DNA of 64,000 nt from Pararhizobium gei (lineage in GTDB: Bacteria; Pseudomonadota; Alphaproteobacteria; Rhizobiales; Rhizobiaceae), in assembly GCF_029223885.1 (NCBI RefSeq), contig NZ_CP119409.1:3002001-3066000 (forward strand), given 5' to 3'. A model generated the notes under the pieces. That model saw nothing but the letters and a program-made list of their open reading frames with translations, had not been told where the DNA came from and searched no databases. The translations under genes and the position numbers were made by a program. Shown piece by piece: positions 6,127 to 9,026 of the stretch (position 1 is its first letter; each line of letters opens with the position of its first letter).

Positions 6127-7101
6127 ATGACTGCCCGACATGCGAAAGTGCTAATCATCGGATCCGGCCCTGCCGGATACACAGCCGCGATCTACTCCGC
6201 CCGCGCCATGCTCAATCCGGTCCTGATCGCCGGAATGGAACAGGGCGGACAATTGATGATCACCACCGATGTGGAAAATTATCCGGGCTATGCCGATCCT
6301 GTCCAAGGCCCCTGGATGATGGAACAGATGCTCAAACAGGCGCAGCATGTCGGCGCGGAAATCGTCAACGACCTCGTGACTGACGTCGATCTGTCCATCC
6401 GTCCGTTCCGGTTGAAAACGGACAGCGGCACGGACTGGACGGCCGACGTGCTGATCATCGCGACCGGCGCCAAGGCCAAATGGCTGTGTATCGAAAGCGA
6501 GCCGACGTTCCAGGGCTTCGGCGTGTCGGCCTGCGCCACCTGCGACGGCTTCTTCTATCGCAACAAGGACGTCATCGTCGTTGGCGGCGGCAATTCCGCC
6601 GTCGAAGAGGCCCTCTATCTGTCGAACCTTGCAAAGACGGTGACCGTCATTCACCGCCGCGACAGCTTTCGGTCTGAGAAAATCCTGCAGGAGCGATTGT
6701 TCGCCAAAGAGAACATCAGGGTGATCTGGGATCACGAGGTGACCGAATATCTCGGCACGCCTGCCAAACCGCCCATGCCCGCTTCGGTGAATGGTGTCCG
6801 GCTGCGCAACACCCGCACAGGTGAAACGAGCGAGATGCCCATCGACGGCGTTTTTGTCGCCATCGGCCATGCACCGGCAGTCGAACTGTTCAAGGATAAA
6901 CTAAAGCTGAAGCCGAATGGCTATCTCTGGACGGCACCCGATTCAACCGCAACGGACGTGGCTGGCGTCTATGCTGCAGGAGACGTCACGGACGACATTT
7001 ACCGTCAGGCGATCACGGCCGCCGGAATGGGCTGCATGGCGGCGCTCGAGGCGGAAAAATACCTGGCGGGCCACATGCCCGTCGCAATTGCGGCCGAATA
7101 G
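6127..7101 (+). CDS. trxB: Thioredoxin reductase (NADPH, flavoprotein)
   Basis: A 324-aa low-molecular-weight TrxB. The FAD motif GSGPAGYTAAIYSA is near the N-terminus, the redox centre is C136-A-T-C139-D-G, the NADPH site is VVGGGNSAVEEALY, and the C-terminal FAD motif is GVYAAGDVTDDIYRQ. It passes electrons from NADPH to thioredoxin in the cytoplasm. A GGAG site precedes the ATG. lsrB follows 109 bp downstream in the same direction. LsrB is linked to redox control in Sinorhizobium, so the pairing is functionally sensible. Confidence 0.97.
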   Translation: MTARHAKVLIIGSGPAGYTAAIYSARAMLNPVLIAGMEQGGQLMITTDVENYPGYADPVQGPWMMEQMLKQAQHVGAEIVNDLVTDVDLSIRPFRLKTDSGTDWTADVLIIATGAKAKWLCIESEPTFQGFGVSACATCDGFFYRNKDVIVVGGGNSAVEEALYLSNLAKTVTVIHRRDSFRSEKILQERLFAKENIRVIWDHEVTEYLGTPAKPPMPASVNGVRLRNTRTGETSEMPIDGVFVAIGHAPAVELFKDKLKLKPNGYLWTAPDSTATDVAGVYAAGDVTDDIYRQAITAAGMGCMAALEAEKYLAGHMPVAIAAE

Positions 7102-8107: not shown

Positions 8108-8310
8108 ACCGGCATTTTGGCCTGCACAAAAAACAATCTCAACTTCCCTTCGACTAACCCTATGTTTAAGATGGATTTTTTCGACGGAAGATGCCTCTTC
8201 CACAAAAGAACGGTTTAAATCGCTTTAAAAACGTGCAGGACTGCGTTTCACACATGGCTGACATGCATATTAAATGATTGCCTAGCGCCCAAAAAACCAT
8301 CATACCGACT

Positions 8311-8433
8311 GCAGCTGATGCATCTTGGTGGCTTTTTTCCTCCCAGTGCCACCGCAGCAGCTGTTCCCCTCTGGAGGTTTGAATACCTTCATAACTATAA
8401 AGGGCCCAAGTTTTCTTGTGGCCCTCTTTTTTT
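8311..8433 (+). ncRNA. AbcR-type trans-acting sRNA, first tandem copy
   Basis: About 123 nt from GCAGCTGATGC to a T-rich terminator (AGGGCC stem at about 8401-8426, followed by seven T). Its core, CTCCCAGTGCCACCGCAG then CAGCTGTTCCCCTCTGGAGG, is shared almost base for base with the copy at 8521. The two C/U-rich stretches (CCUCCCA and UUCCCCUCU) look like the anti-Shine-Dalgarno loops of the AbcR/alpha-r15 family, which represses ABC-transporter mRNAs with Hfq. Its place after lsrB also fits. The 5' end is estimated; CATACC at about 8301 may be the -10 element. Confidence 0.85.
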
Positions 8434-8520
8434 GCCTTGATTTCAAGCGCATACCTCTGGTTGCGGCTTTTTGGCTCCTGCCGGCATTGAAAAGTTGCCA
8501 GAGGCTTCCCACATCAGTTT

Positions 8521-8639
8521 CAGCTGATGCAGATGGTGGAGTTCTTCCTCCCAGTGCCACCGCAGCAGCTGTTCCCCTCTGGAGGTTTTTACCTTCACAC
8601 CTAAAAAGGGCCCGGTTCGTCCGCTGGCCCTCTTTTTTT
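8521..8639 (+). ncRNA. AbcR-type trans-acting sRNA, second tandem copy
   Basis: About 119 nt. It repeats the first copy's layout: CAGCTGATGCAG start, TCCTCCCAGTGCCACCGCAG core, GTTCCCCTCTGGAGG, then an AGGGCC/GGCCCT terminator stem followed by seven T. The loop sequences and the region before the terminator differ from copy one, while both anti-SD-like segments are identical. Each copy has its own terminator, so two separate transcripts are expected. The 5' end is inferred by alignment with copy one. The ArsR gene and its operators follow about 35 bp downstream. Confidence 0.85.
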
Positions 8640-8673
8640 GCCTATATCACTCTCACAGGTTTGTGACTTGAAT

Positions 8674-8719
8674 ATCGGAATTTTCCGATTTATAAATCGG
8701 CGCATCGGAATTTGACGAT
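8674..8719. promoter_or_regulatory. Two operator-like palindromes upstream of the ArsR gene
   Basis: ATCGGAATTTTCCGAT at 8674-8689 is a perfect 16-bp palindrome. ATCGGAATTTGACGAT at 8704-8719 is the same word with two changes. The copies are 30 bp apart and sit 14-59 bp before the ArsR start codon. This is where an autorepressor would bind. Two sites three helical turns apart suggest cooperative binding on one DNA face. Confidence 0.7.
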
Positions 8720-8732
8720 ACACTGGACGCCG

Positions 8733-9026
8733 ATGGACAAGGACGAAATTCTGAAGGCTCTCGCCCATCCGAAACGCATCGAAATGCTCGGCTGGATGAA
8801 AGACCCGCAGGCACATTTTTCAAGCCAGCATCACCCGCTGGACATGGGAATTTGCGCCAGCCAGTTCGAGCGCTGCGGCCTGTCCCAATCGACCGTGTCC
8901 GGGCACCTTGCTGTCCTGCAACGCGCCGGCCTGGTGACGACGCAGCGCGTTGGACAATGGATTTTCTACAAGCGGAACGAGGACGCCATAAGGGCGTTCC
9001 TGAAACATATTGGCGATACTTTGTAG
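8733..9026 (+). CDS. ArsR-family transcriptional regulator
   Basis: A 97-aa winged-helix repressor starting MDKDEILKALAHPKRIEML, with the recognition helix region SQSTVSGHLAVLQRAGLV and the wing TTQRVGQWIFYKRNED. I chose ATG 8733; the TTG at 8712 would run through the second operator. The typical ArsR metal motif ELCVCDL is absent, but C-A-S and R-C-G cysteines are present, so an electrophile or thiol signal is more likely than arsenic. The Old Yellow Enzyme gene starts 56 bp downstream in the same direction and is the likely target. Function of the signal is inference. Confidence 0.88.
   Translation: MDKDEILKALAHPKRIEMLGWMKDPQAHFSSQHHPLDMGICASQFERCGLSQSTVSGHLAVLQRAGLVTTQRVGQWIFYKRNEDAIRAFLKHIGDTL

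Follow-up and report, generated by a model that had tools for sequence, protein, structure and literature searches.

The window, a stretch of 64,000 nucleotides from Pararhizobium gei, contains two copies of the ar15 (AbcR) small RNA in tandem between lsrB, which encodes a LysR-type regulator, and an arsR-type gene (Table 1). The Rfam ar15 covariance model (RF02345, gathering score 40) matched both copies over all 112 model positions: copy 1 over 118 nt, with a score of 107.4 bits (E 1.2e-21), and copy 2 over 115 nt, with a score of 96.2 bits (E 8.2e-19). The original prediction of an AbcR-like tandem sRNA pair is therefore borne out, as is its count of two copies, although both matches are shorter than the 120 nt it gave. 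The copies are direct repeats with a spacing of 206–208 nt, 95% identical over a 55-nt block and 80% identical over a 54-nt terminator block, and abcR1 starts 206 nt past the final base of lsrB. The lsrB product is 90–98% identical to the LsrB proteins of the best 80 named relatives kept, with 98% identity to that of Rhizobium sp. Root1212. Published passages on Agrobacterium tumefaciens give the same order as in the window, trxB-vtlR-abcR1-abcR2-arsR, with trxB as the neighbour of vtlR (PMC7486931); in Sinorhizobium meliloti, the abcR tandem is placed between SMc01226 and lsrB (PMC3712013, PMC8844928), and an arsR-type gene is likewise a published flanking gene (PMC8844928, PMC7486931). At the level of sequence, the locus is confirmed as an AbcR1/AbcR2 pair, in an arrangement that has already been published and to which one more species is now added.

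Table 1. Features of the abcR locus in the window, and the third ar15 copy of the same genome.
Feature	Position	Strand	Basis
trxB, thioredoxin reductase, upstream neighbour	6127..7101	+	NCBIfam TIGR01292, 388.8 bits (cut-off 343.45)
lsrB (vtlR), LysR-type regulator, 298 aa	7211..8107	+	Pfam HTH_1 and LysR_substrate
LsrB box of copy 1, ACATGGCTGACAT, at -61	8252..8264	+	6/7 fixed positions of GCAT-N3-TG-N3-T
Core promoter of copy 1, TTGCCT-N17-CATACC	8278..8306	+	Read from sequence
abcR1 (ar15)	8313..8430	+	Rfam RF02345, 107.4 bits
Anti-Shine-Dalgarno motif 1 of abcR1, CCTCCC, loop 1	8339..8344	+	Sequence; unpaired in predicted fold
Anti-Shine-Dalgarno motif 2 of abcR1, TTCCCCTCT	8364..8372	+	Sequence; largely unpaired in predicted fold
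Rho-independent terminator of abcR1, stem and T run	8401..8433	+	Fold; T run in sequence
RpoH1-like promoter of copy 2, ATTGAA-N16-CCCACAT	8486..8514	+	11/13 versus CTTGAA-N16-CCCATAT
abcR2 (ar15)	8522..8636	+	Rfam RF02345, 96.2 bits
Anti-Shine-Dalgarno motif 1 of abcR2, CCTCCC	8547..8552	+	Sequence; partly paired with GGAG in predicted fold
Anti-Shine-Dalgarno motif 2 of abcR2, TTCCCCTCT	8572..8580	+	Sequence; largely unpaired in predicted fold
Rho-independent terminator of abcR2, stem and T run	8607..8639	+	Fold; T run in sequence
arsR-type regulator, end of intergenic region	8733..9026	+	NCBIfam NF033788, 62.2 bits (cut-off 55)
Third ar15 copy	Contig 2, G000:C2:239071-239182 (L002:1501-1612)		Rfam RF02345, 103.2 bits (cut-off 40)

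Each copy is predicted to fold into three hairpins, the last of which is the terminator, with anti-Shine-Dalgarno (anti-SD) motif 1 in loop 1 and motif 2 between hairpins. The folding energy corresponds to a z-score of -5.5 for copy 1 (0 of 200 dinucleotide shuffles as good) and -2.6 for copy 2 (1 of 200). The C/U-rich segments CCTCCC and TTCCCCTCT do not differ between the copies, and both copies have a terminator hairpin and T run of their own, with different terminator loops and linkers, all as originally described. We also observed a GGAG in loop 1 of abcR2 that is predicted to pair with part of CCTCCC (window positions 8538–8552), and that is missing from the second copies of three genomes of the same genus. 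Such pairing could make targeting by abcR2 weaker.

We next considered the promoters, taking ar15 model position 1 as the start for all distances. In S. meliloti, LsrB drives abcR1, with the consensus GCAT-N3-TG-N3-T located between -61 and -49, and RpoH1 drives abcR2 from the box CTTGAA-N16-CCTATAT (PMC8844928). The passages of PMC7486931 on this point describe abcR in S. meliloti as free of LsrB control under the conditions used there; LsrB control of S. meliloti abcR1 was shown in the later study (PMC8844928). Copy 1 of the window has an LsrB box whose one mismatch, A for G, is the same in three genus mates, and the TTG and CATA of its core promoter are conserved among first copies. For copy 2, we found no LsrB box, with two of the seven positions matching at -62 to -60, and an RpoH1-like promoter is present instead. 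A scan of the + strand with an E. coli-type promoter consensus found nothing. With the LsrB box confined to copy 1 and an RpoH1-like promoter before copy 2, control by LsrB is expected for copy 1 alone, as in S. meliloti; an LsrB site upstream of each copy, as the originally proposed binding test assumed, was not what we found, and binding before each copy is unexpected. Control of both window copies by LsrB has a parallel in relatives, where 15 of 47 second-or-later copies carry the box, but the promoter of window copy 2 and the S. meliloti precedent, as described in PMC8844928, both count against it, and we consider it very unlikely. At window positions 8674–8719, just before the arsR-type gene, there is a palindrome, ATCGGAATTTTCCGAT, with an imperfect repeat 30 nt on, which is possibly that gene's own operator.

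To place these promoters in context, we fetched 100 loci from relatives, covering most but not all ar15 places among the matches listed. Together with the window and a plasmid copy from the same strain, these made 102 loci with 151 ar15 copies: 69 loci linked to lsrB (25 single, 40 double, three triple and one quadruple) and 33 unlinked. Eight copies scoring below 30 were left out, namely four unlinked copies, two second copies and two singles linked to lsrB; six of these eight have a box a few bases nearer. The other 143 copies were kept. With an LsrB box defined as 6 or 7 of 7 positions at -62 to -60, a box preceded 43 of 44 tandem first copies and all 23 single lsrB-linked copies kept, as well as the 15 of 47 later copies mentioned above. 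The same definition was satisfied by fewer than 0.4% of upstream sequences after single-base shuffling and by 79 of 7,150 dinucleotide shuffles (1.1%), which is higher than the single-base control. Among the best 80 named lsrB loci, which overlap with the fetched genomes and so are not an independent sample, two ar15 copies lay within ~1 kb after lsrB in 72 and one in six, and no copy was found within that distance in two; all 78 first copies had a box, at -61 or -62.

The RpoH1-type promoter was less sharply distributed. A score of at least 11/13 without an LsrB box was observed for 22 of 47 second-or-later copies, and a score of at least 11/13 also for five of 44 tandem first copies and six of 23 single copies; at 9 or 10 of 13 the score did not discriminate, and at 11 it was still reached by some first copies. 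The RpoH1-type assignment of the copy 2 promoter is thus suggestive. Overall, an LsrB box before copy 1 is a general rule, and an RpoH1-type promoter before copy 2 appears to hold in some lineages, including that of the window. Later copies elsewhere carry LsrB boxes, indicating that the split in control is lineage-dependent. Longer ar15 arrays also follow lsrB in four of the fetched relatives, with four copies in locus L096 and three in each of L054, L068 and L122; eight of the nine later copies in these arrays have LsrB boxes, and one later copy in L096 has an RpoH1-like promoter (10/13).

The history of the pair was examined with a tree of 137 copies, based on 117 columns of the RNA body and with 64 of its 128 inner branches open. 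Window abcR1 grouped with the first copies of its genus, and window abcR2 was nearest to second copies from two genus mates, a placement that was not strongly supported. The abcR1 body is near-invariant within the genus, agreeing with genus mates' first copies in 126–127 of 131 columns; for abcR2, the agreement with genus mates' second copies is 99–110 of 127–129. The region upstream of copy 2 has 59–70% identity to that of second copies in three genus mates and 48–49% identity to that of first copies, a pattern that argues for descent of copy 2 by position. The invariance of abcR1 and the promoter likeness of copy 2 suggest that the pair is older than the genus and that copy 2 changes faster; the tandem pair most likely predates the genus. 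A recent tandem duplication, or a partial overwriting of copy 2 by copy 1, either of which would leave redundant copies, is favoured by the 95% identity of the 55-nt block, by the body of copy 2 being about as close to window copy 1 (107/130) as to the genus mates' second copies, and by the fact that no strongly supported branch joins it with the latter. The body sequence alone is indecisive on this point, but the promoter likeness and the close match of abcR1 to genus mates' first copies speak against the window copies having arisen by recent duplication or having undergone conversion, which we regard as highly improbable. Small converted tracts may be present in the copy 2 body. That the interval encodes a small protein is almost certainly wrong: a 113-aa ORF (8325–8666, + strand) and an 86-aa ORF (8300–8560, - strand) do exist in the sequence, but both span the two sRNAs and their terminators, the copies of genus mates differ by indels that are not in multiples of three, and the covariance model accounts for the interval sequence.

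A third ar15 copy of this genome lies on a contig of 271,879 bases that has repA, repB and repC at its start. This 272-kb repABC plasmid also carries Ti-type traG and traC, as judged by protein similarity to plasmid pSinA. The plasmid ar15 copy has a helicase-type gene before it and a ParB-type gene after it, and its LsrB box, GCATAGCTGTATT, has all seven fixed positions at exactly -61, overlapping the stop codon of the helicase-type gene. It is thus of the unlinked type, located away from lsrB and with a GCATAGCTG-type LsrB box at about -61. Plasmid pSinA has a similar backbone, with helicase and ParB proteins that are 93% and 91% identical to those of the strain's plasmid, and no ar15 copy was found in it (L149:6860-7400), ruling out that the copy is universal on this backbone; pSinA is a natural comparison plasmid. 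We are highly confident that the interval consists of abcR1, with a box for activation by LsrB at -61, and abcR2, with an RpoH1-type promoter, and that a third gene with its own LsrB box is on the repABC plasmid. The covariance model, gene order and promoter anatomy agree with the AbcR1/AbcR2 arrangement and the linkage to lsrB that had been claimed for this locus, and support the accompanying proposal of shared targets with different regulation.

The less expected part is the plasmid copy with a probable binding site for the LsrB regulator, of a kind that copies on many rhizobial plasmids seem to have. After filtering, 29 unlinked copies remained, from relatives and from the strain's own genome. 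The LsrB box is present in 26 of them, with all seven positions in 25, and both anti-SD strings are kept in all 29. The three copies without the box (L040, L061 and L106) have lower scores and look like other ar15 subtypes. The stretch GTCCGTACCGAAACTCGG is shared upstream of two unlinked or plasmid copies without an LsrB box (L040:2522-2611 and L246:2984-3089), which points to another regulator. Conservation at the fixed box positions amounts to 1.45 bits per position in the 26 higher-scoring unlinked copies, as compared to 0.50 just upstream, and the RNA bodies of these copies differ by up to 29%. The unlinked promoters are as conserved from -48 to -40 (e.g. L002:1453-1461) as in the LsrB box, with 1.52 bits versus 0.79 in chromosomal first copies. 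The conserved promoter element may therefore be longer than the LsrB box, perhaps comprising a second site or an extended operator. When a single origin of the unlinked copies was considered on the poorly resolved tree of 117 columns, at least six label changes were counted. We also considered whether plasmid copies always follow a DEAD-helicase/methylase gene; this failed, with a helicase or ParB gene in the fetched flanks of seven of 33 unlinked copies and with other neighbours beside the ar15 copy in R. etli p42d, pTiS4 and others.

A search of PLSDB with the plasmid promoter and sRNA matched 379 records (339 with query coverage of 80% or more), typed as conjugative (271), non-mobilizable (89) or mobilizable (19); megaplasmids are among those counted, as are a few records of chromosome size that contain the chromosomal pair. 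By comparison, the RepC of the strain's plasmid matches 2,097 records, a figure that gives a sense of scale but not an exact denominator. We also inspected 19 copies from named plasmids, hand-chosen for variety and including R. etli p42d and p42a, R. tropici pRtrCIAT899b, S. fredii pNGR234b, S. medicae pSMED03 and two Ti plasmids. The LsrB box was present at -60 to -62 in 16 of these 19 copies, and no box was found at those positions in the Phyllobacterium, Labrenzia and Rhizobium sp. AB2/73 plasmid copies. Anti-SD strings 1 and 2 were present in 18 and 17 of the 19, respectively. Plasmid ar15 copies are mentioned in the Figure S1 legend of PMC3712013, and three AbcR homologues are described for S. 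meliloti in a passage of PMC7143759. We found no report of an LsrB box on plasmid ar15 copies in the published passages searched, which is not a claim of priority.

The specificity of the motif supports it as a probable LsrB operator. Across 247 genomes of the family, we counted 24 occurrences of the extended operator GCATAGCTGCNYTGCACAA, distributed over 21 genomes, and none of the reversed control. Twenty-two of these sites precede an ar15 copy by 61 or 62 bases, and the other two, in the opposite orientation, precede an ar14 (NfeR1-family) copy by 47–65 bases. Because the pattern itself came from ar15 copies of the same genomes, these counts show specificity rather than independent discovery. 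The plasmid copy of the window strain is one base off this pattern. In the strain's own genome, four of six exact matches to RCATRGCTGNNNTGCA are upstream of sRNAs (abcR1, the plasmid abcR and two ar14 copies), and the other two look coding by eye; the extended motif with one mismatch was found in 39 places, as compared to 10 for the control. PMC10746234 describes NfeR1 as a target of LsrB in S. meliloti, and the occurrence of the motif upstream of ar14 copies therefore supports it as the probable LsrB operator in this genome. Three of the genome's five ar14 copies (G000:C1:471916-472042, 4058963-4059088 and 973619-973743) have an LsrB-type box that begins 92 bases before the model start, two with an exact GCATAGCTGCACTGCA box and the third with one mismatch to the extended pattern. 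An operator common to the ar14/NfeR1 family in general failed as a candidate, with a box at four of 30 sampled ar14 loci, a count that covers boxes of the GCATAGCTGCACTGCA form; the published form is TGCA-N6-GCAT. NfeR1 (ar14, RF02344) resembles AbcR in being an LsrB-activated anti-SD sRNA in S. meliloti (PMC10746234), but belongs to an RNA family of different structure from ar15.

The nearest described systems, besides NfeR1, are the AbcR pairs of S. meliloti, A. tumefaciens and Brucella. As described in PMC8844928 and PMC3712013, the S. meliloti AbcR1/AbcR2 genes are also in tandem between lsrB and an arsR-type gene, have two anti-SD motifs, and have an LsrB box at -61 on abcR1 and an RpoH1-type promoter on abcR2. 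They differ from the genes described here in that the window LsrB box has one mismatch, the third copy of the window strain is on an accessory plasmid, and the loop-1 GGAG of window abcR2 may partly cover an anti-SD motif. For A. tumefaciens C58 (atu2186-atu2187), which has the published gene order given above (PMC7486931), we saw no anatomical difference, as judged from published passages. In that species, the abcR1 promoter is bound by VtlR, and this binding is not competed away by unlabelled abcR2 promoter (PMC7486931). The Brucella AbcR1 and AbcR2 belong to the same RNA family, and one copy is under VtlR control; however, the passages of PMC7486931 place the two copies on different chromosomes and describe VtlR regulation of abcR2, not abcR1. 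The linkage of lsrB to the sRNAs that was originally proposed by reference to Brucella VtlR holds here, but the analogy is loose.

Beyond the promoter anatomy, the mechanism is most likely that described in relatives; for transcription, control by LsrB and RpoH1, the role of Hfq and target repression, the following outline is modelled on what has been published for S. meliloti and A. tumefaciens. abcR1 and abcR2 would each give an RNA of ~115–120 nt. LsrB, encoded just upstream, would activate abcR1 through the box at -61, raising the levels of AbcR1 and of the plasmid AbcR during growth or oxidative challenge. The RpoH1-type promoter would allow abcR2 to be read independently, with RpoH1 raising AbcR2 under stress. 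With Hfq, the two C/U-rich anti-SD stretches of the AbcR RNAs would block translation of ABC-transporter and metabolic mRNAs, such that AbcR1, AbcR2 and the plasmid AbcR would all occlude ribosome-binding sites of transporter mRNAs.

For the plasmid copies, we think it quite possible, and propose tentatively, that conjugative Rhizobiaceae plasmids have AbcR genes of their own, which a strongly conserved operator wires to the chromosomal LsrB of the host, and that on entry these plasmids add an LsrB-controlled dosage to transporter silencing. In Agrobacterium, AbcR1 represses GABA uptake and has been proposed to guard quorum-sensing-driven plasmid transfer from quenching, as discussed in a review (PMC4231840) whose logic concerns chromosomal AbcR1 and Ti transfer. 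By analogy, a plasmid AbcR could possibly lower GABA uptake and spare the transfer quorum signal for the plasmid's own benefit. Many plasmids typed as conjugative carry this nutrient-uptake sRNA family with a probable host-regulator operator at a fixed spacing. If the proposal is true, plasmids would steer host metabolism through an RNA and an existing host sensor, and this would affect how the phenotypes of AbcR deletions are read in strains with such plasmids.
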